Shown here: positions 1-60,322 of the stretch, in pieces
How positions within the stretch are numbered: position 1 is the first letter of the stretch
Layout of the letters: every line of letters starts with the position of its first letter
Source of the DNA: Microbispora amethystogenes
Lineage (GTDB): Bacteria; Actinomycetota; Actinomycetes; Streptosporangiales; Streptosporangiaceae
Length of the DNA: 64,000 bases
NCBI RefSeq assembly: GCF_016863015.1
Contig: NZ_BOOB01000059.1
Span: 1-64,000 of the forward strand
Reading direction: 5' to 3'
Translations under genes and position numbers: made by a program
The notes under the pieces: generated by a model
Told to the model about the DNA's origin: nothing
Database searches by the model: none
What the model saw: the letters and a program-made list of their open reading frames with translations, nothing else

Positions 1-551
1 CCGGCGGCGTAGATGTCACACGGCCGGTTGCCCGCCGGTGACGAGGGCGACGCCGAAGGCGATGCCGAGGGAGACGCCGAAGGGGACGCCGAGGGCGAGC
101 CGCCGGGGGACGGAGAGGTGACGCCGCCGGTGCAGGTCACGCCGTTCAGGGCGAAGCTCGCCGGCTTCGGGTTGGAGCCGCTGAAGGCTCCGTTGAACCC
201 GAACTCGGTGCTGCCACCGCTGGGGATGCTGCCGTTGTACGAGACGTTCGTGACCGTGACCTGGGAGCCCGACTGGGTGTAGGTGCCGTTCCACAGCTGG
301 GTGATGGTCTGCCCGGCGGGGAAGGACCAGGTCAGCCTCCAGCCGTTGATCGGGTCACCGAGGTTGTCGACCTTGACGCTTGCGCCGAATCCGCCCGGCC
401 ATTCGCTGGACACCGTGTAGGTGACCTGGCATCCGGCCGCGGCCGCCGAAGCCGCGTGCGTCCCTGCCACACCGGCGCCGGCCACCAGAAGGGCGGCGAC
501 GGCGGCGGCCGAGAGCTTCAGGCGCCGACGTAATGAGCTGACATTTAGCAC
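1..551 (-). CDS. Secreted CBM2-alpha-L-arabinofuranosidase (GH54), 5' part only
   Basis: The gene runs off the left edge, so only about 183 residues are visible. A GTG start at 551 gives a basic stretch, a hydrophobic core and an Ala-rich cleavage region (signal peptide, about residues 1-38). A family 2 carbohydrate-binding module follows (GCQVTYTVSSEWPGGF near its start, ALNGVTCTG at its end, with the paired Cys and surface Trp typical of CBM2). A Ser-Pro-Ala repeat linker leads to GNRPCDIYAAG, which matches the opening of GH54 arabinofuranosidase catalytic domains (family knowledge). It should remove arabinose side chains from xylan or arabinan outside the cell. No strong Shine-Dalgarno is visible at the GTG. 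The CBM2 call is firm; GH54 rests on about ten residues. Confidence 0.72.
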   Translation of the reverse strand, partial: MLNVSSLRRRLKLSAAAVAALLVAGAGVAGTHAASAAAAGCQVTYTVSSEWPGGFGASVKVDNLGDPINGWRLTWSFPAGQTITQLWNGTYTQSGSQVTVTNVSYNGSIPSGGSTEFGFNGAFSGSNPKPASFALNGVTCTGGVTSPSPGGSPSASPSASPSASPSASPSSPAGNRPCDIYAA

Positions 552-3916: not shown

Positions 3917-5475
3917 TCGGCAGGCGTCGCTTCCTGGGGATCCTCGGCGGCGCCGGCTCGGCGGCCGTCGTCGGGGTGCCGCTGATATCGGGGATGGGCG
4001 GGTCTTCCAGCACGGGCGAACTCCTGCCCAGCCGGCTGCCGCTGCCCCGGCCGTACACCCTGCCGTTCCGGGTGCCGCCGGTGCTGCGGCCCACGAGCAC
4101 GGACGGCGCCGCGGACCGCTACGAGATCGTCCAGCGTACGGCGGTCGCCGAGATCCTGCCGGGCGTGCGGACCGAGATCTGGGGATACAACGGGATCTTC
4201 CCCGGTCCGACCATCGTGTCCACCAGTGGCCGCCGAACGATCGTCACCCACCGCAACCGGCTGCCGGCGCCCGTCGTCGTCCACCTGCACGGCGGCCGCA
4301 CGCCCCCGGAGCACGACGGCTACCCGACCGACCTGGTGTATCCGGAGGGCGCCTCCGGCCACCACATGGCCGGCGCCGGGCACACGGCCATGAGCGGCGA
4401 CGTCTCCATGGGGCGGCGCGACTACGTCTATCCCCTCCGGCAGCCCGCCGCGACGCTCTGGTACCACGACCACCGGATGGACTTCACCGGCCCCGGGGTG
4501 TGGCGCGGCCTGGCGGGCTTCCACATCGTCCACGACCGGCACGAACTGTCCCTCGGCCTGCCCGGCGGCGACCGGGACATGCCGATCGCGATCATGGATC
4601 GCTCGTTCGCCGAGGACGGCGGCCTGCGGTACCCGAGCCTGGACCCCACTCTCACGCACACGCCGGGGGTGCGCTCCCCGTACGGGCCCGGGGTCCTCGG
4701 AGACGTGATCCTGGTCAACGGCGTGCCGTGGCCGCTGGCCCCGGTGCCCGCCGTACGGCACCGCCTGCGCCTGCTCAACGCGTCCAACGCCCGGCGCTAC
4801 CGCCTCGTCCTCGACCCGCCCCCGCCCGGCGGGAACGCCTTCGTACAGGTCGGCACGGACGGCGGCCTGCTCAGCCGGCCGATCCCGCACGACGCGCTGG
4901 AGATGGCGCCGGCCCAGCGTTTCGACGTGGTGGTCGACTTCGGCCGCTACCGTCCGGGCCAGTACGTCACGGTGCGCAACGAGTGGGGCGACGGCACCAC
5001 CGCCGACGTCATGCGCTTCCACGTCACCGCCCGTGCCGACGACCGCAGCCGGGTGCCGGACGTGCTCACCGCGGCCGTCCCCCTGCGCGAGAAGGACGCC
5101 GTCGTCACCCGCCGGTTCGAGTTCCGGCACGACACCGTGCGCGGGATGCCGGGCTGGACGATCAACGGCCGGGCGTTCTCGCCCACCGACAGCATCATGA
5201 GCCCGAAGCTCGGCACCACCGAGATCTGGCGGCTGCTCTCCGACTTCCACCACCCGATCCACGTCCACCTGTCCCACTTCCAGGTCCTGTCCCGGGGCCT
5301 CGGCGGGCCCGGGCCGTACGACCACGGGCCGAAGGACACCGTGGACCTGCGCCCGGGTGAGCAGATGGCCGTCCTGGTCAGGTTCGACGACTACGCGGGC
5401 CGGTACGTCATGCACTGCCACAACCTCGAACACGAGGACATGGGGATGATGGCCACCTTCACCACGGTCCGCTGA
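3910..5475 (+). CDS. Tat-exported multicopper oxidase (CotA/bilirubin oxidase type)
   Basis: A 521-residue copper oxidase that should oxidise phenolic or bilirubin-like substrates with reduction of O2 to water. The N-terminus MVIGRRRFLGILGG is a twin-arginine signal (RRRFLG), so the protein is exported folded. All four copper-ligand blocks are present: HLHGG near residue 126, WYHDH near 186, HPIHVHLSHF near 448, and HCHNLEHEDMGM near 502 with the T1 Cys and axial Met. The ATG at 3910 overlaps the stop of the upstream membrane protein and gives the complete Tat signal. The 3' end overlaps the convergent acyltransferase gene by 17 bases. Control by the divergent MarR protein is likely. Confidence 0.93.
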   Translation: MVIGRRRFLGILGGAGSAAVVGVPLISGMGGSSSTGELLPSRLPLPRPYTLPFRVPPVLRPTSTDGAADRYEIVQRTAVAEILPGVRTEIWGYNGIFPGPTIVSTSGRRTIVTHRNRLPAPVVVHLHGGRTPPEHDGYPTDLVYPEGASGHHMAGAGHTAMSGDVSMGRRDYVYPLRQPAATLWYHDHRMDFTGPGVWRGLAGFHIVHDRHELSLGLPGGDRDMPIAIMDRSFAEDGGLRYPSLDPTLTHTPGVRSPYGPGVLGDVILVNGVPWPLAPVPAVRHRLRLLNASNARRYRLVLDPPPPGGNAFVQVGTDGGLLSRPIPHDALEMAPAQRFDVVVDFGRYRPGQYVTVRNEWGDGTTADVMRFHVTARADDRSRVPDVLTAAVPLREKDAVVTRRFEFRHDTVRGMPGWTINGRAFSPTDSIMSPKLGTTEIWRLLSDFHHPIHVHLSHFQVLSRGLGGPGPYDHGPKDTVDLRPGEQMAVLVRFDDYAGRYVMHCHNLEHEDMGMMATFTTVR

Positions 5476-6604
5476 TCTCGGCCGCCGGCGCCCGGGACGA
5501 CCGGGCCAGGCGGCGGCCGAGGCGCTGGCCCGGGGCCTCCACGAGGCGGTGGGTCACGTGGCCGAGCGCCACCGTGGCGAGGAGGAACAGCGGCAGGTTC
5601 GGCGCGATCCGCAGCAGGAGCGGATGTAAGAGGTAGAGCGAGAAGCTGATCACTCCGAGGTGGGTGAGCCACCGGGGGAACGCCCGGCCCCGCAGCGCGA
5701 AGGCGGCCAGGAAACAGGCCGCCGCGAGCACGATCGCCACCGTGTGCGTGGGATCGTGCTCGGCGACCACCGTGCAGGCCAGGACGGCCAGCAGGGCCGC
5801 CGCGGCCGTACGCCACCGGATCGCTCCGCGCTCGGCCCGGTAGACGGCCGTCCCGGCGAACATCGCCGCCGCGATGACCAGCCCCTGTCCGGCGCCGCCC
5901 CGGCTGCCCAGCACGACCAGCGCCAGACCGAGGAGGCCCCCGATGACCGCCGCCGCCCTGCGGACGGCGCCGTACGGCCCCGCGGACGCCGCGATGGCCA
6001 GCACGACCGCGACGGCGAGGACCAGAGCGGCGGCGCCCGCACGGCCGTTGATCGTCGCGCGCGGCAGCAGCAGGCCGAGGGGCACCGCGGCGAGCGCCAG
6101 GACGACGGCGACCGGCGCCGGCCGGTGTGCCTGCCGTACGGCGAAGAGCCCCGCGACCATCAGGTAGAACGCCATCTCGTAGGAGAGCGTCCACATCACG
6201 TTGATCACGGCGGGCAGGCCGAGCAGTTCCTGCAGCATCGTGAGGTTGCCGAGGGCGACGAGCGCCAGCGGACGCCGGTTCAGGTCGGGTGACGGCACGA
6301 ACGCGCCGGCGTACGCGAGGAGCAGCGCGAGGGCGAGCGCGGTGAGCAGCAGGGGCAGCAGCCGGAAGGCCCGGCCGGTCCAGAAGGCCCGCAGGTCGCC
6401 GCGCCGTTCCAGGGAGGCCGGGATGATGTATCCGCTGACCAGGAAGAACGCGAAGACGCCCCAGGTGCCGACGTCGACGGCCCCGTCCACTTCCGCCCAG
6501 AACTCCGGGACGAAGGTCCAGGCCCCGTGGTGCAGTGCCACGCCCAGCGCGGCGACTCCGCGCAACGCGTCCAGCCATGCCAGCCGAGAGGGGTTCGCCG
6601 CCAT
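5459..6604 (-). CDS. Acyltransferase 3 family membrane protein
   Basis: A 381-residue multispanning membrane acyltransferase of the OafA/NodX superfamily. The N-terminal signature RLAWLDALRGVAALGVALHH contains the conserved R...G and the proposed catalytic His pair. Segments such as FFLVSGYIIP and RAFRLLPLLL follow, with about ten hydrophobic helices. Such enzymes O-acylate sugars, peptidoglycan or secondary metabolites at the membrane; the acceptor here is unknown. The gene is separated from the kinase gene upstream by only about 10 bases and may be transcribed with it. It overlaps the 3' end of the convergent oxidase gene. Confidence 0.88.
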   Translation of the reverse strand: MAANPSRLAWLDALRGVAALGVALHHGAWTFVPEFWAEVDGAVDVGTWGVFAFFLVSGYIIPASLERRGDLRAFWTGRAFRLLPLLLTALALALLLAYAGAFVPSPDLNRRPLALVALGNLTMLQELLGLPAVINVMWTLSYEMAFYLMVAGLFAVRQAHRPAPVAVVLALAAVPLGLLLPRATINGRAGAAALVLAVAVVLAIAASAGPYGAVRRAAAVIGGLLGLALVVLGSRGGAGQGLVIAAAMFAGTAVYRAERGAIRWRTAAAALLAVLACTVVAEHDPTHTVAIVLAAACFLAAFALRGRAFPRWLTHLGVISFSLYLLHPLLLRIAPNLPLFLLATVALGHVTHRLVEAPGQRLGRRLARSSRAPAAEISGPW

Positions 6605-53976: not shown

Positions 53977-54708
53977 TCACCCGGCGAGGGCGGCACGCTT
54001 GGTCGCGGCGACCACCGAGAGCCAGGCCATCGCGGTGAGTACGCCGACGCAGAGGGTGAGGGAACCGGCCCATCCGCCGGACATGGCCCAGCCGTTGCCC
54101 AGCACCACTGCCAGACCGCCGAGCCGTGAGGCGAACGCGTGGCCGGACCGGCCGGCGCGGGAGTAGTGGCGGCCCAGGACGAAGCAGGCCGCGGCCAGCG
54201 CGGCGAAGGCCACAGAGCCACTTGCCAGGTGCAGCAGGCCGTGCCAGCTCATGGTGCCGGGACCGGCGGGGGTCCCGGCCGGGAAGCCGTCTCCCGGGTC
54301 CAGGACGAAGACCCCGGACGCGGCCATCATGAGGCCCTGCACCAGGACCAGCCGCGGCGCCCAGGTCCCTCCCTGCGCGCCGCGCATGACACGCCGCAGC
54401 CCGACGGCGCCGGCGACCGTCAGTGCGGCCGTGACCAGGAAGTTGGAGATCTGCAGCCAGCCGAGGTCCCCGGTGCTCAGCATGCTCAACGGATGGCGCA
54501 GCAGATCGAAGCCGGCACGGGTGAAGGCCTGGGCGAGGGACACGATCCCGAACACCGGGGCCGCGGCCACACCACAGGCCAGCAGCGTCCTCGTCGATGC
54601 CGGCGCGGCCGCACCGGTCCGCGTGGCGCGGCCGGAGGAGGCTGACGCCGGGATGGTTCCGGCGCTACGCGAACCGGAGTCGGGAGTGGTGACGCGCGTG
54701 GAGGTCAT
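53977..54708 (-). CDS. DUF998 family membrane protein, copy 2
   Basis: A 243-residue protein with six membrane helices and a cytoplasmic Ser/Thr/Ala-rich N-terminus of about 40 residues. DUF998 marks are LRHPLSMLSTGDLGWLQISNF and GVFVLDPGDGFPAGTPAGPGTMSWHGLLHLASGSVAF. It resembles the copy at 37877-38488 but is longer and lies alone. Function unknown. Confidence 0.85.
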   Translation of the reverse strand: MTSTRVTTPDSGSRSAGTIPASASSGRATRTGAAAPASTRTLLACGVAAAPVFGIVSLAQAFTRAGFDLLRHPLSMLSTGDLGWLQISNFLVTAALTVAGAVGLRRVMRGAQGGTWAPRLVLVQGLMMAASGVFVLDPGDGFPAGTPAGPGTMSWHGLLHLASGSVAFAALAAACFVLGRHYSRAGRSGHAFASRLGGLAVVLGNGWAMSGGWAGSLTLCVGVLTAMAWLSVVAATKRAALAG

Positions 54709-55012
54709 CGGGGTGTTCCCTTCGTCGGGTGCTCCGCGGCCGGTCCGTCCCGCCGGCCTCGCTCACGCGTCGAACGGCTACGGGCCGGATCGACACCGCC
54801 GTGGTGCCGGCAGGCCGATCCCTGCTCACCTGCGATCACGCCACGTGAACGCATTCCCTGTCACATGCGCATTCCCTGTCGCATTGAGGAGAGAGGCCCT
54901 GGTCAGAGGGGCGAAGATGGTGGTGTCTGTTTCGCCCGCGTCCGTACGACGTGTAGGTGAGACAGGGCGGACCGGCGATCGGCCCGCACAGTGAACACAA
55001 GGAGACACCACG
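54709..55012. other. Gene-free spacer with an 18-bp tandem duplication
   Basis: No gene is seen in 304 bases. CGCATTCCCTGTCACATG and CGCATTCCCTGTCGCATT lie in tandem at 54850-54885, upstream of the YCII gene, and may be regulator sites. Confidence 0.55.
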
Positions 55013-55351
55013 ATGCGGTTCCTGTTGACCACCACCGGCGATTCCTCCGCCCCCGACGAGGCGATGATGGCCGAGATGGGCGCCTTCATCGAGGAGATGA
55101 CGAGGTCCGGCGTGCTGCTGGCCACGGGCGGGCTCGAGCCGGGCGGCGTGCGGATGACCAGCCGAGGGGGCGAGGTCACCGTGACCGACGGACCGTTCGC
55201 CGAGTCGAAGGAGGCCATCGTCAGCTTCGCGCTGGTGGAGGCCCGTTCCCGTGAGGAGGCGATCGAACTGGCCCGTCGTTTCTGGAAGATCGTCGGTGAC
55301 GGCCAGGGTGCCGTTCAGCAGGTCTTCGGCCCGGAGGACGCGCCCCGCTGA
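55013..55351 (+). CDS. YCII/DGPF-domain protein
   Basis: A 112-residue YCII-related protein (ferredoxin-like fold). MRFLLTTTGDSS, LLATGGLEPG, VTVTDGPFAESKEAIVSF (the DGPF motif) and VQQVFGPEDAP are all family marks. Genes of this type stand next to ECF42-group sigma factors throughout actinobacteria (established association), and one follows here after 27 bases. The protein may modify or sense a ligand for the sigma factor; its exact role is unknown. AAGGAG lies eight bases before the ATG. Confidence 0.92.
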   Translation: MRFLLTTTGDSSAPDEAMMAEMGAFIEEMTRSGVLLATGGLEPGGVRMTSRGGEVTVTDGPFAESKEAIVSFALVEARSREEAIELARRFWKIVGDGQGAVQQVFGPEDAPR

Positions 55352-55378: not shown

Positions 55379-57916
55379 GTGAGCGGCACGGATGCTCTGA
55401 TCGGCCGGGTGACGTCCCGCGCCGACCCTCCCCGCGACGAACGCGGTGTGATCGACGCGGTCTGGAAGCTGGAGTCCGCGAGGATCGTCGCCGGCCTGCT
55501 GCGGTTGGTCGGCGACGTCGGCCTCGCGGAGGAACTCGCGCAGGAGGCGGTCCTCGCCGCGCTGGAGCAGTGGCCCGCGTCGGGTATCCCGGACAACCCC
55601 GGCGCCTGGCTCATGGCCGTCGCCAAGCGACGTGCGGTCGACCACCTGCGCAGGGAGGACCGGCACGGCCGCGGGCAGGAGCGGCTCGCCCACGACCTCT
55701 CCACGCGTCCCGGCGACGACGCCCGTGAGATGGACGACATTCTGGGCGCGGTCGACGGAGAGGTGGGCGACGACGTCCTGCGGCTGATGTTCGTCTCGTG
55801 CCATCCGGTGCTGCCGGCCGAGTCCCGGGTGGCGCTCACGCTGCGGCTCGTCGGCGGCCTGCGCACCGACGAGATCGCGCGTGCCTTCCTCGTCACCGAG
55901 ACCGCCGTGGCCCAGCGGATCGTTCGGGCCAAGCGCGCGCTCGCCGACGCGGGGGTGCCGTTCGAGGTGCCGTCGGGGCCGGACCGGACGGCCCGGCTGG
56001 CGTCGGTGCTGGAGGTCGTCTACCTCGTGTTCAACGAGGGCTATTCGGCCACGGCCGGCGACGACCTGATGCGGCCGTCCCTCTGCCTGGAGGCCCTGCG
56101 TCTCGGCCGCCTGCTGGCCGGGCTCGTGCCCGGCGAGGCCGAGGCGCACGGCCTGGTCGCGTTGATGGAGCTCCAGCAGTCGCGCTCGGCCGCCCGTACC
56201 GGGCCGTCCGGGGAGCCGGTCGTGCTGCACGAGCAGAACCGGGGACGCTGGGACCGGCTGCTCATCCGGCGCGGCTTCGCCGCGTTGCTGCGGGCGCGGC
56301 AGGCCGGTGGGCCGCTCGGGCCGTACGTGCTGCAGGCGGCCGTCGCGGCCTGCCACGCGGGAGCGGCCACGGCGGAGGAGACGGACTGGCCGCGGATCGC
56401 GTCCCTCTACGACGCGCTGGTCCGGGTGCTGCCCACACCGGTCGTCCAGCTCAACCGCGCGGTCGCGCTCGCCATGGCGTACGGGCCGGACGCCGGCCTC
56501 GCGCTGGCCGACACGCTGACCGGCGAACCGGCCTTGGCGGGCTATCACCTGCTGCCCGCCGTACGCGGCGACCTGCTGGCCCGGCTCGGCCGGCGCGAAG
56601 AGGCCCGCGCGGAGTTCGAGCGCGCGGCGTCCCTCACCCGCAACGCCCCGGAACGCGACGTCCTGCTGCGGCGCGCCGCGACCTGCGCCGCCAACGCTGC
56701 CGAAGGCATTGCGGATATCGGAGGCATCGGAAGCGTCGAGGGCGTCGGACGCATCGCGGGCATCGGAGGCGTCGGCGGTGTCGAGGGCGGCATTGGGGGT
56801 GTCGGTGTGGGGGGCGTCGTGCTCGGCGAGGCCGTTCGGGTCTTCCTCGCCCGTCCCGGCCTGACGGCCGGCACCCTGCGGTCGTACGGCCAGACCCTCT
56901 CGCGGCTGTGCCTGCGCCTCGGCGCGGACCTTCCGCTGCAGGAGGCGACCCCCCAGCGGGTGGCCGAAGTCTTCGCGGCCGAGTGGGGCACGGCGGCGGG
57001 CGCGACCTGGAACCGGCACCGCGCCGCGCTACGGTCGTTCGCCGCCTGGGCGGCCGGGCACGGACTGATTTCCGCCGACCCGGCCGATGGGCCGACCACT
57101 GGTCAGACCGCCGACCCGGCCGCTGGTAAGGCCGTCGATCGGGCCGCTGTTCCTGACGCCCGTGTCGCCGGCCTGGGCGCTGATCGGGCGGCTGTTCCAG
57201 ACGTGGACCGGGCCGCTGTTACGGGCGCTCGTGTCGCCGGCCTGGGCGCCGATTGGGGCACTGAACTGGCCGCCGCGCTCGACCGGCGGCCCGAGCCTCG
57301 CGGGCGGGTCCGTCCCATCGCCCGGCCGCACCTGGAGGACCTGTGGGCGCGGCCGGACGTCGCCCCGCGCGAGCGCGCCCTGTGGCTGCTGCTCTACGAG
57401 AGCGCGGCCCCGGCGGAATGGGCGCTCTCGCTCGACGTGCAGGACCTCGACCTGCCCGGCATGAGCGCCGTGGTGCGCGGCAGGCGGCGCCGGATCCGCT
57501 GGGAGGCGGGAACGGCCGCGCTGCTGCCCCCGCTCGTCGGCGACCGGCGTCGCGGCCCGCTCTTCCTCACCGACCGACGGCCGGGCCCCGGCCGCGCACC
57601 TGCGGCGGCCGACCTGTGCCCGCACACCGGCCGGAGCCGCCTGTCGTACGAGCGGGCCGAGCACCTGTTCAAGCGCGCCACCCGGGACCTCGACCCCGGG
57701 GGCGAGGGGTACACGCTGCACCGCCTGCGTCACTCGCGCCTGGCCCACCTCGCCGAGGACGGCTGGACGGCGCCGATGCTGATGTCCCTGTCCGGCCACA
57801 CCAGCGCGCGCACCCTGCGCGAGTTGGTCCGGGCCGGACAGCCGGCGGAGGTGACCGCCGACCCGCCCTGCCCGCCGCCGGAGCGTCCACGCATGCCCGC
57901 CCGGCCCTCCGCGTGA
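55379..57916 (+). CDS. Fusion: ECF42-type sigma factor plus catalytically dead tyrosine recombinase domain
   Basis: An 845-residue protein. Region 2 (about 20-95, VGDVGLAEELAQEAVLAALEQWP and NPGAWLMAVAKRRAVDHLRRE), region 4 (about 140-190, LTLRLVGGLRTDEIARAFLVTETAVAQRIVRAKRAL) and the TPR extension to about 445 make a complete ECF42 sigma factor. A Gly/Val/Ile linker follows. Then comes an SAM-like integrase N-domain (LTAGTLRSYGQTLSRLCLRL) and an integrase C-domain. That domain keeps HRLRHS (His781, Arg784) and SGHTS (His807), but has Ala677 instead of Arg I and Leu816 instead of Tyr. Recombinase activity is therefore unlikely. GTG start; no frameshift is visible. Confidence 0.88.
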   Translation: MSGTDALIGRVTSRADPPRDERGVIDAVWKLESARIVAGLLRLVGDVGLAEELAQEAVLAALEQWPASGIPDNPGAWLMAVAKRRAVDHLRREDRHGRGQERLAHDLSTRPGDDAREMDDILGAVDGEVGDDVLRLMFVSCHPVLPAESRVALTLRLVGGLRTDEIARAFLVTETAVAQRIVRAKRALADAGVPFEVPSGPDRTARLASVLEVVYLVFNEGYSATAGDDLMRPSLCLEALRLGRLLAGLVPGEAEAHGLVALMELQQSRSAARTGPSGEPVVLHEQNRGRWDRLLIRRGFAALLRARQAGGPLGPYVLQAAVAACHAGAATAEETDWPRIASLYDALVRVLPTPVVQLNRAVALAMAYGPDAGLALADTLTGEPALAGYHLLPAVRGDLLARLGRREEARAEFERAASLTRNAPERDVLLRRAATCAANAAEGIADIGGIGSVEGVGRIAGIGGVGGVEGGIGGVGVGGVVLGEAVRVFLARPGLTAGTLRSYGQTLSRLCLRLGADLPLQEATPQRVAEVFAAEWGTAAGATWNRHRAALRSFAAWAAGHGLISADPADGPTTGQTADPAAGKAVDRAAVPDARVAGLGADRAAVPDVDRAAVTGARVAGLGADWGTELAAALDRRPEPRGRVRPIARPHLEDLWARPDVAPRERALWLLLYESAAPAEWALSLDVQDLDLPGMSAVVRGRRRRIRWEAGTAALLPPLVGDRRRGPLFLTDRRPGPGRAPAAADLCPHTGRSRLSYERAEHLFKRATRDLDPGGEGYTLHRLRHSRLAHLAEDGWTAPMLMSLSGHTSARTLRELVRAGQPAEVTADPPCPPPERPRMPARPSA

Positions 57917-57971: not shown

Positions 57972-59588
57972 GTGGCCGTGCGATCGGCGGATACCGTTGC
58001 CCGAGTGTCGAGGAAAGCGGCAAACCAGTCATACCAGGCATGCCTGAAGGACGTCCTGCTCTGGGCGGTTCTCGGACTTCCGGCGGTCTGGGCAGGCCTG
58101 ACGCGAATGCTGGCCGACTCCTACACCTGGCCCGAGGTGACCGCCGGACTCGCGGCGATCGGCGTGGCCGTCGCGCTCGCCCGGTCCAGGCCGCTGGCGG
58201 CCATGCTCGTCACCGCCGCGCTGTGGGCGCTCTCGGTCGCCGTCCGGGGGGACCCCACCGTCTTCTTCCTGGCCCTGACGGTGATGAGCTGTCTCGCGGG
58301 GACGCGGATGCCCCGGGCCCGACCGGCCCTGATCGGGCTGTCGGCAGTGGCTGTGGCGGCCGCCGCCGTAGTTCCGCTGGTCCGCTGGGACCCCACTTCA
58401 GGGGGCTTTGTCCCCTGGGACCTCGGCGCGTGGTTCTTCGCCGTCACCGGGATCGGGTTGTTCGGCCTCGTGCCGTGGCTGGCGGGCCACGCGCGGCACC
58501 AGAGCCTGGCCCTGACCCACGCGGGCTGGGAACGCGCGGAGCGGTTGGAACGGGAACGCCGGATGCTCGACGAGCAGGCCAGGATGCGGGAGCGAACCGC
58601 CATCGCACGAGAGATGCACGACCTGCTCGGCCATGATCTGAGCCTGGTGGCGCTACGAATCGGCGCCCTCGAGGTCGCCCCCGGTCTGTCCGGAGACCAC
58701 CGTGAGGCTGCCGGAGAGGCGCGCAGGGCGGTCACCGGCGCCGCCGAGCGCCTACGCGACATCGTCGCCGTGCTCGGCGACGGCGACGCGGGTCACGTGG
58801 ACGACGACCCGACCGGCGAAAGCGTCGGCGAACTGGTCCGGCGGGCCGCGGCCGCCGGAATGTCCGTCGTGGTGCACGGCGCGCAGGAGGAGGAGCGGAC
58901 TCCCGGGCCCGCGCGCGCCCTCGTACGACGGGTGGTGCGGGAGGGGCTGACCAACGCCGCGAAGCACGCCCCCGGCTCGGAGGTGCGAGTGCGGCTCGCG
59001 GCCGGGCCGGACGAGACCGAGGTGACCGTCACCGCTTCGGCACCGGACCGCCCGGGCCGAGGTGTGGCAGGCGGATACGGGCTGCGGGAACTGGCCGGGC
59101 GGGTGCGGCTTCACGGCGGCATCCTGCACGCCGGGCCCTCGGACGAGGGCTTCACGCTGGCCGTCCGGCTGCCGCACGTCACACCGCCGGCGACGGACGT
59201 TCCCGGCCCTCGTCCGGTCGCGCTCGATCTGGCACTGGCCCGGCGGCGGGCACGCCGTACGCGCCTGGCCGCGCTGCTGGTGTCCGCCGCGGCGTTCACC
59301 GGAGCGTCCGCGTTCCTGCTGGGGTTCATGGTCTACGACGCGACGACCTCGGTGCTGCCGCCGGCCGAGTTCGCCGGGCTGCGGGTCGGGCTGGCCGAGT
59401 CGGAGGTCGCGGCGGTGCTGCCGCCCCGGACCAGGATCGACGATCCGTCGTGGCCCGAGCCGCCGATCCCTCCGGGTTCCCGGTGCCGTTACTACGGCGT
59501 TGACCCCGACCCGTTCGGCGAACCGCGGCTCCACCGGCTGTGCTTCGCGGAGGGCCGCCTGGTCGGCAAGGACTTCCTGCCGCGGTGA
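57972..59588 (+). CDS. NarL-type sensor histidine kinase with C-terminal outer domain
   Basis: A 538-residue membrane kinase. Five or six N-terminal helices (to about 170) are followed by the HisKA_3 dimerisation helix with His216 in REMHDLLGH. The ATPase domain has EGLTNAAKHAPGS and GGYGLRELAGRV. Unusually, a further membrane helix (LAALLVSAAAFTGASAFLLGFMVY) and a short outer domain with Cys (SRCRYYGVDP...RLCFAEG) end the protein, so a sensor lies after the kinase. GTG start. The response regulator follows after 71 bases. Confidence 0.9.
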   Translation: MAVRSADTVARVSRKAANQSYQACLKDVLLWAVLGLPAVWAGLTRMLADSYTWPEVTAGLAAIGVAVALARSRPLAAMLVTAALWALSVAVRGDPTVFFLALTVMSCLAGTRMPRARPALIGLSAVAVAAAAVVPLVRWDPTSGGFVPWDLGAWFFAVTGIGLFGLVPWLAGHARHQSLALTHAGWERAERLERERRMLDEQARMRERTAIAREMHDLLGHDLSLVALRIGALEVAPGLSGDHREAAGEARRAVTGAAERLRDIVAVLGDGDAGHVDDDPTGESVGELVRRAAAAGMSVVVHGAQEEERTPGPARALVRRVVREGLTNAAKHAPGSEVRVRLAAGPDETEVTVTASAPDRPGRGVAGGYGLRELAGRVRLHGGILHAGPSDEGFTLAVRLPHVTPPATDVPGPRPVALDLALARRRARRTRLAALLVSAAAFTGASAFLLGFMVYDATTSVLPPAEFAGLRVGLAESEVAAVLPPRTRIDDPSWPEPPIPPGSRCRYYGVDPDPFGEPRLHRLCFAEGRLVGKDFLPR

Positions 59589-59636
59589 CCGTGCCCGGAA
59601 ACGACCGTGCCCGGAACCGGCCGTGCCCGGAACCCG
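59589..59636. repeat. Three 16-bp tandem copies between kinase and regulator genes
   Basis: The unit CCGTGCCCGGAACCGG occurs three times with small changes, starting right after the kinase stop codon and filling most of the 71-base gap. Confidence 0.85.
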
Positions 59637-59659
59637 CGGCGGTTCCATACCATCGACTG

Positions 59660-60322
59660 ATGCGCACGATCCGGGTGGTTCTGGCCGACGACGAGCCGTT
59701 GATCCGCGCGGGGGTCCGGACGATCCTCGCGTCGGACCCCGGGATCGACGTGGTCGCCGAGGCCGCCGACGGTCGCGCTCTGGTGGAGGCCGTACGGGCG
59801 CACCGGCCCGAGGTCGCCCTCGTCGACATCCGTATGCCGGGGCTGGACGGGCTCGCCGCCGCATCGGAGGTGCGCCGGATCGCCCCCCGCACCGCCGTAC
59901 TGATCATGACGTCCTTCGGTGCGGACGAATACGTGGCCCGGGCGCTCGGCGACGGCGTGGCGGGGTTCCTGCTCAAGACAGGTGATCCCCGGGAGTTCTC
60001 CCTGGGGGTGCGCGCGGTGGCGGAGGGCGGGGCGTACCTGTCGCCGCCCGTGGCCGCGCGTGTCATCCGGGAGTTCGCGGGCGATCGGCTGTCGCGCTCG
60101 GCCGCGGCCCGCGAACGGATCGCCGTGCTGACGAACCGGGAGCGGGAGATGCTCGCCCTGGTGGGCGAGGGCATGTCCAACGCGGGCATCGCCGCGAGAC
60201 TGCACCTCGCCGAGGGCAGCGTGAAGACCTACATGAGCACGATCATGGCCAAGCTGGGCGTGCCCAACCGGGTGCGGGCGGCGGTCATCGCGCATGAGGC
60301 GGGGCTTTCCGGCGCGGGATAG
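59660..60322 (+). CDS. NarL/FixJ-family response regulator
   Basis: A 220-residue regulator paired with the upstream kinase. The receiver domain has the acidic pair VVLADDEPLI, phospho-acceptor Asp56 in VDIRMPG, Thr in IMTSFG and Lys in FLLKTGD. The C-terminal LuxR HTH reads LTNREREMLALVGEGMSNAGIAARLHLAEGSVKTYMSTIMAKLGV. Start ATG at 59660. Its 3' end overlaps the convergent PAP2 gene by 38 bases. Targets unknown. Confidence 0.94.
   Translation: MRTIRVVLADDEPLIRAGVRTILASDPGIDVVAEAADGRALVEAVRAHRPEVALVDIRMPGLDGLAAASEVRRIAPRTAVLIMTSFGADEYVARALGDGVAGFLLKTGDPREFSLGVRAVAEGGAYLSPPVAARVIREFAGDRLSRSAAARERIAVLTNREREMLALVGEGMSNAGIAARLHLAEGSVKTYMSTIMAKLGVPNRVRAAVIAHEAGLSGAG

Follow-up and report, generated by a model that had tools for sequence, protein, structure and literature searches.

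An ECF42-type sigma factor fused to a catalytically dead tyrosine recombinase, and a candidate DNA target for the fused domain

What could a recombinase fold without an active site do at the end of a sigma factor? This question is raised by one frame in the 64,000-nucleotide stretch of Microbispora amethystogenes DNA analysed here (assembly GCF_016863015.1, contig NZ_BOOB01000059.1, positions 1 to 64,000; hereafter the window), in which an ECF42-type sigma factor is continued by a tyrosine recombinase (Table 1; labels of the form L### and G### denote loci and genomes, respectively). The ECF42 proteins described in a review (Sven_0747 and others; PMC8999054) carry a C-terminal extension of about 200 residues rich in tetratricopeptide repeats (TPRs); the fused protein does not end there, but runs for about 370 residues of recombinase fold past this extension. 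We assign a probability of about 0.72 to the reading that the domesticated recombinase is the promoter-reading domain of a mainly self-regulating sigma factor. An ECF42-type sigma factor would have captured a plasmid-type tyrosine recombinase as its C-terminal domain, once and long ago, and the captured protein would have lost catalysis and retained its DNA-reading parts. In the promoters of the factor's own YCII-sigma operon and of the divergent DUF998 gene, where there is one, the fused domain would bind TTCCCTGTCACAT half-sites descended from the site of the ancestral recombinase, and would thereby direct the sigma factor, and hence RNA polymerase, to these few promoters. This candidate DNA target of the fused family, the half-site TTCCCTGTCACAT, is the new result presented here. 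We infer DNA binding by the fused domain, its activating sense and the -35 takeover discussed below from comparisons of sequences.

The earlier note on this stretch, made from the letters alone, had described an uninterrupted 845-codon frame with an ECF42 sigma factor and a two-domain integrase fold. This was borne out, as there is no internal stop and the main domains (Sigma70_r2, Sigma70_r4_2, DUF6596, Phage_int_SAM_1 and Phage_integrase) each scored above the curated Pfam cut-off. The TPR extension described for the sigma part was recovered as DUF6596, at 120 bits; the TPR-like region extends to about residue 432, and TPR models matched it below the cut-off only. A profile of the recombinase family matched the XerD structure 1a0p (E 1.1e-9). 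The window protein retains HRLR (residues 781-784) and His807 and has Leu816 at the Tyr position, exactly as stated in the note, but the residue aligned with Arg I is Pro678 (in ESAAPAEW, 674-681) and not the adjacent Ala677. It is not classed as a recombinase because it has Pro at Arg I, no Lys and Leu at Tyr. Members of the window's genus all keep His III and, except for L145, HxxR; their Arg I position is occupied by Pro and their Tyr position by Leu or Phe. In L145, the Tyr is present, but Thr replaces Arg I and Arg replaces His II.

Loss of the active site is general in the family. Stand-alone relatives retained Arg I, Arg II, His III and Tyr in 20/20 cases, whereas Arg I was found in 3/51 fused rows, the beta-hairpin Lys in 1/51, His II in 14/51, His III in 13/51 and Tyr in 1/51, and the full catalytic set (R-K-H-R-H-Y) in none of the 51. 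The residue table rules out an active recombinase. The region from His III to Tyr is absent from 38/51 fused proteins, which stop at about the HxxR motif (the ends of these short proteins are hard to align), a finding that weakens the idea of a locked recombinase scaffold put forward in the note. No convincing trace of the missing Tyr region was detected behind the stop of truncated proteins in the loci tested (best E 0.06, L153). The recombinase part nevertheless looks to be under selection: the median ratio of nonsynonymous to synonymous substitution rates (dN/dS, by the NG86 method, which is crude for GC-rich genes) was 0.42 for 13 rows of the genus and 0.34 for 19 of the 33 clade B rows (clades defined below), between those of the sigma part (0.20 and 0.26, respectively) and the linker (0.76 and 0.71). 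The alignment of 30 fused and eight stand-alone rows contains 28 invariant columns, and a block ending in TGR-RLSYERAEYLFK is almost identical in complete and dead members.

The fused set comprised 51 loci: the window, 35 from the first searches and 15 retrieved after discovery of the half-site. A single open frame was kept in 50 of them, including 12 other genomes of the genus, which rules out an assembly or frameshift artefact, the possibility that the note had proposed to check. The refuting result named in the note, a split of the two parts in all close relatives, was not found; there was a single split copy of 51, L152 (G077; 4076-6113), with the sigma and recombinase parts in different frames. 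The fusion was present in 13/15 genomes of the genus, window genome included, and in 22/100 sampled genomes of the family, with both parts confirmed (one, G077, split by a frame change). A class sample of 148 genomes gave five fusions, counted by open-frame length, and a phylum sample of 198 genomes only that of the window genome. Named carriers include Streptomyces triculaminicus, S. griseocarneus, Streptacidiphilus melanogenes and Actinomycetospora endophytica (Streptomycetaceae and Pseudonocardiaceae), and plasmid-borne fusions were found in S. anulatus, Streptomyces sp. NBC_00250 and Embleya; of the 10 plasmid matches listed, five were sigma fusions (at least five overall, given 116 further records), and three of these five were used. 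G110, the second G002 match and one G080 match had long frames but were not sigma fusions, and were dropped.

A tree of 127 sigma parts, estimated by a quick method, placed the 51 fused sequences in one clade (SH-aLRT 99) relative to 76 unfused ECF42-type sequences, which were those within the best 80 sigma matches and not a random sample. The fused clade splits into clade A, in which the window's genus is joined by some others (18 rows, support 96), and clade B (33 rows, support 98). At the level of sequence, the fused sigma parts are of single origin across families and the capture is not recent, contrary to the recent joining suggested in the note; a young age is suggested only for the linker and the repeats between the two recombinase domains. 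In the tree of recombinase parts, the fused rows, the stand-alone L107 (the gene of locus L193) and the broken stand-alone L129 formed one clade (100/97); the branching within it did not set the fused rows apart as a separate group (a third row labelled stand-alone, L115, corresponds to the split gene of G077). No relative of the recombinase was found near the unfused ECF42 genes in any of 76 loci (whole fetched stretch, 5-13.5 kb), which rules out two adjacent genes in unfused relatives; L106 gave a long match, but this comes from a second sigma gene. A plasmid rather than a phage recombinase is favoured as the source, since its relatives numbered 208 in plasmid records against two distant ones in phage records and the exact inverted repeat of the half-site gave no match in viral contigs.

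The half-site recurs upstream of the YCII gene throughout the fused family. With at most one mismatch, it was found within 350 bp of the YCII start in 36/36 fused loci, and all 15 loci retrieved after its discovery hold an exact copy, giving a total of 51/51. With up to two mismatches, it was absent from 76/76 unfused loci over the whole fetched stretch; this absence is firmest for the 67 loci that include a same-strand YCII gene, the other nine lacking one and several having little upstream DNA. A search of 52 genomes, in which copies were counted by hand, yielded 48 exact copies, all from the 32 genomes with a fusion; the fused operon accounted for 41 of the 48 (the operon copies of G041, G056 and G075 carry a mismatch). 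The 20 genomes without a detected fusion, two of them from the same genus, had no exact copy. Tyrosine recombinases are known to recognize two inverted arms around a spacer of 6-8 bp. In clade B, the half-site forms the inverted repeat ATGTGACAGGGAA-N8-TTCCCTGTCACAT, whose arms are separated by 8-9 bp in most loci (by 4 bp in L162 and by 10 bp in L160), and most of the window's genus, the window included, has two direct copies of the clade B half-site. When the weaker copy was permitted three mismatches at most, we counted inverted pairs in 29/33 clade B loci and direct pairs, with a period of 17, 18 or 27 bp, in 16/18 clade A loci. The note's suggestion of promoter choice by a second DNA-binding domain at inverted repeats is supported at the level of sequence by this recombinase-type half-site, which among the loci examined is confined to fused ones and forms inverted repeats in most of clade B and direct repeats in most of clade A. 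One half-site only was found in L134, L135, L148, L027, L063 and L211 (exact in L211), and the split L152 retains one exact and one weak copy.

Position distinguishes the two clades. The ECF42-type promoter TGTCGA-N15-18-CGA[CT] lies upstream of the YCII gene in 35/67 unfused loci (0.1 expected), and in its strict form it was found in 5/15 clade A and 0/21 clade B loci among the first 36 fused loci. The half-site of clade B ends 8 or 9 nt before CGACG in 30/30 loci measured (of 33), a spacing that places its start within 1-2 nt of the expected start of the ECF42 -35 element. The half-sites of clade A are farther upstream, with about 51-75 nt separating them from the -10 element (62 nt for the nearer one of the window). 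(The automatic distances of L136, L138, L143 and L145 ended at an earlier CGACG and were not used, L149 and L211 gave none and L152 was left out.) The recognition helix of sigma region 4 follows the same division: Arg183 was found in 76/76 unfused, 18/18 clade A and 3/32 clade B sequences, and Gln179 in 74/76, 18/18 and 12/32, respectively (L152 left out). The conserved columns of region 2.3/2.4 are retained in both fused clades, at 97% in clade B, where those of the recognition helix are retained at 60%. With the half-site in the -35 position, the fused domain of clade B probably took over work of sigma region 4; we give even odds to the stronger claim that the recombinase replaced this region as the -35 reader, such that a promoter would consist of a half-site and a -10 element and symmetric pairs would form divergent promoters. 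In clade A, to which the window belongs, the two direct half-sites precede an ECF42-type promoter and, by way of the flexible linker, probably serve as a tether for the factor.

The number of half-sites varies with the neighbouring gene. A divergent relative of DUF998 is present in 41/51 fused loci, including the window, and single half-sites were confined to loci without it (6/10, versus 0/41 with DUF998; Fisher p 1.2e-5, uncorrected for kinship, L134 and L135 being close kin). The left half-site of clade B pairs is accompanied by a separate ACGTCGA, which mirrors the -10 element and lies at a similar distance (judged by eye, not counted). The restriction of single half-sites to loci without DUF998 and the mirrored -10 element speak for half-sites as independent promoter elements, one per promoter, rather than as a pair kept for recombination.

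Several complete stand-alone relatives have a similar site beside their gene. Of the stand-alone loci with the helix LSY[EP]RAEY, 6/10 have upstream the inverted repeat TGTGACA...TGTCACA, with no more than one mismatch in either 7-mer (chance expectation at most 0.02 per locus, as estimated for part of the set); the repeat was found in none of 15 loci with other or unrecognised helices, which include the broken gene L195, near the fused clade. L193, the closest complete stand-alone recombinase, has full, perfect half-sites, inverted, 836 bp away before a small gene, with TGTGACAGGGAA on both sides, and L192 has one full arm, TGTGACAGGGAA. For L192, L201, L196, L200 and L235 (the last being the recombinase of an S. 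longwoodensis plasmid), the distance from the repeat to the gene, or to its first domain, is 131-219 bp. The helix LSYERAEHLFK is probably the DNA-reading helix of the fused protein, given that this type of helix is associated with the half-site and that it is nearly invariant. In Cre, the corresponding helix reads the DNA major groove. The simplest reading is that a stand-alone recombinase of this kind maintains its recognition site next to its own gene, and that the ancestral site is still read by the fused domain. A third half-site, TGTCACA, occurs 77-78 bp beyond the inverted repeat in L192, L201, L196 and L200. Inverted repeats of other sequence were seen about 125-137 bp upstream of the recombinase gene in two of the 15 loci, L234 and L236 (Rhodococcus and Nocardia plasmids), which have other helices, and such repeats may allow a helix-to-site code to be established for the plasmid recombinase family.

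Seven exact copies of the half-site in fused genomes lie away from the fused operon. Three are located by stand-alone recombinase genes (one in G041 and two arms in G080). Two more, in G048 (L189:5704-7988), together make up a perfect inverted repeat that stands, with a CGACG at a distance of 8 nt, in front of a DUF1801 gene; YCII-like and unfused ECF42-like frames come next. Through this arrangement, the fused sigma factor could control a second sigma system in a cascade. The copy in G075, whose fused locus has no DUF998 neighbour, precedes a gene related by translation to the DUF998 protein of the window. The last, in G062 (L190:3101), belongs to an isolated recombinase-type inverted repeat close to a transposase-like frame, possibly a remnant of a stand-alone recombinase locus.

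Three other explanations of the fused domain have to be weighed against promoter reading. On the half-sites, it might instead block the sigma factor's own promoters, in a negative feedback. Such autorepression would suit the overlap of the clade B half-site with the -35 region, where a bound protein could occlude, and the presence of 41/48 exact sites at the factor's own operon. We consider it unlikely, as the lack of the ECF42 -35 element in all 21 clade B promoters, together with the diverged sigma4 helix, fits replacement better, the clade A sites lie upstream of the -35 element, and the sites before the DUF1801 gene (L189) and a DUF998-like gene (L191) keep half-site and CGACG together. 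Sequence association cannot identify the reader of the half-site, which might be a different DNA-binding protein, with the fused domain serving protein contacts or sensing only; the -10 element and partner genes are indeed those of ordinary ECF42 systems. A separate reader appears less probable still, given the distribution of the half-site between fused and unfused ECF42 loci (51/51 versus 0/76), the lack of exact copies in the 20 genomes without a detected fusion and the presence of the site at the closest complete stand-alone recombinase gene. That the dead domain is a relic carried along without function would agree with the lost active site, the C-terminal end missing from 38/51 proteins, the drifting linker and the one split copy (L152); with dN/dS values of 0.34-0.42, a single open frame in 50/51 loci, 28 invariant columns and conserved sites, we regard this as very improbable.

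Several observations weigh against promoter reading by the fused domain as proposed here. The counts were made over related loci and are not independent. Arg II is still R in 34/51 fused rows, and 4/32 clade B rows still have Arg or Lys at position 183. Clade B also altered Val217 and Leu303, outside the sigma4 helix, and Thr176 and three other columns are altered in both clades or in clade A. Among the stand-alone loci, the agreement of L201, L196, L200 and L235 with the half-site is limited to the outer 7-mer, the interior of the arm being different, and 4/10 recombinases with the helix LSY[EP]RAEY show no such repeat. At 33-122 residues, the linkers of clade A exceed those of clade B (35-55) in length, but L134 combines a linker of 33 residues with a site 62 nt from the -10 element, and L163, L208, L209 and L156 combine short linkers (36-44 residues) with sites 51-52 nt away. 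A rule by which linker length tracks site distance was rejected, as it holds only in part, with these five loci deviating.

The fused proteins resemble ECF42 factors (PMC8999054) in their sigma2-sigma4 architecture, TPR-rich extension and YCII neighbour. For unfused ECF42 loci, the promoter measured here is of the TGTCGA/CGAC kind; the window has TGTCTG-N17-CGACG, and a strict match was seen in 5/15 clade A and 0/21 clade B loci. The fused proteins differ from the ECF42 systems described in PMC8999054 in the recombinase domain after the extension and the recombinase-type half-sites at the promoter, and clade B differs further in the loss of the -35 element and, mostly, of the sigma4 arginine. 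With Xer-type recombinases (XerD, 1a0p) and plasmid ones (pFAJ2600, the S. longwoodensis plasmid), they share the core-binding domain and the catalytic-domain fold, and some stand-alone relatives, including that of S. longwoodensis, have an inverted repeat with the outer 7-mer of the half-site near their gene; unlike these recombinases, they are fused to a sigma factor, have lost catalytic residues and mostly lack the Tyr region. The Crypton-derived DUF3504 genes of animals likewise encode a domesticated tyrosine recombinase with most catalytic residues lost, and many are transcription regulators, but they are eukaryotic and not sigma factors, and protein-DNA or protein-protein contacts are only proposed for them (PMC3212892), whereas a candidate target site is available here. 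ECF41 also is an ECF sigma factor with a fused C-terminal domain (PMC3426412). No sigma factor-recombinase fusion was found described in the open-access library searched, judged by titles and the openings of abstracts, with two ECF42 papers and the 2021 ECF reclassification outside this scope. The SnoaL_2 domain of ECF41 is not known to be a site-specific DNA reader.

If promoter reading by the captured domain is correct, the capture of a recombinase, whose kind of site then turns up at the promoters of the capturing factor, can give a transcription factor another DNA specificity in a single step, and the -35 grip of a sigma factor can pass to another domain. The two states, upstream sites with an ECF42-type promoter in clade A and a site replacing the -35 element in clade B, make this path testable. 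A takeover of the -35 element would be new in two respects, as a way in which promoters are recognized and as a fate of site-specific recombinases in bacteria. The system would also offer a sigma factor and a promoter as a matched pair that has a very small number of targets in each genome, and proteins annotated merely as RNA polymerase sigma factors in two plasmid records would gain a candidate target site.

Table 1. Features of the fused locus and its surroundings in the window
Feature	Position	Strand	Details
ECF42-type sigma factor with dead tyrosine recombinase	55379..57916	+	845 codons, no internal stop; GTG start at 55379
Sigma region 2	55484..55663 (residues 36-95)	+	Pfam PF04542 Sigma70_r2, 40.7 bits
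Sigma region 4	55790..55942 (residues 138-188)	+	Pfam PF08281 Sigma70_r4_2
Sigma4 recognition helix	taken as residues ~173-186		includes Gln179 and Arg183
DUF6596, ECF42-type C-terminal extension	55994..56296 (residues 206-306)	+	Pfam PF20239, 120 bits
Sigma-recombinase linker, Gly/Val/Ile-rich	56660..56812	+	repeats at 56718-56783; length varies among relatives
Core-binding (SAM-like) domain	56813..57055	+	Pfam PF02899 Phage_int_SAM_1, residues 494-559
Repeat-built insertion between the recombinase domains	57085..57270	+	alignment; tandem repeats at 57092-57149
Catalytic-domain fold without active site	57368..57826	+	Pfam PF00589 Phage_integrase, residues 664-813
Helix LSYERAEHLFK	57641..57673	+	nearly identical in fused and related stand-alone proteins (alignment)
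YCII-domain gene, first gene of the presumed operon	55013..55351	+	Pfam PF03795
Divergent DUF998 gene	53977..54708	-	Pfam PF06197
Half-site TTCCCTGTCACAT	54854..54866	+	sole exact copy found in the window genome
Second half-site TTCCCTGTCGCAT	54872..54884	+	direct, one mismatch; period 18 bp
Operon promoter, ECF42-type	54924..54951	+	TGTCTG, 17 nt, CGACG; -35 departs from TGTCGA
Divergent ECF42-type promoter before DUF998	54768..54795	-	TGTCGA, 17 nt, CGACG

The repeats that the note had placed in the linker are of two kinds: the Gly/Val/Ile-rich stretch is located there, but the DRAAVPD repeats (57137-57157 and 57182-57202) lie between the two recombinase domains. The inter-domain insertion is shorter in L135 and absent from L134, the nearest relative. 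GTG 55409 may be an alternative start, as MTSLDAHR is found there in some relatives. A YCII gene, the usual partner of ECF42 factors, lies directly upstream on the same strand in 35/35 other fused loci. The window genome encodes eight DUF6596-type sigma factors, and with the recombinase part as query (E 0.01) its sole match was the fused locus. Downstream of the fused gene, at 57972-60322, there are a histidine kinase (HisKA_3) and, judged by its translation, a LuxR-like response regulator.

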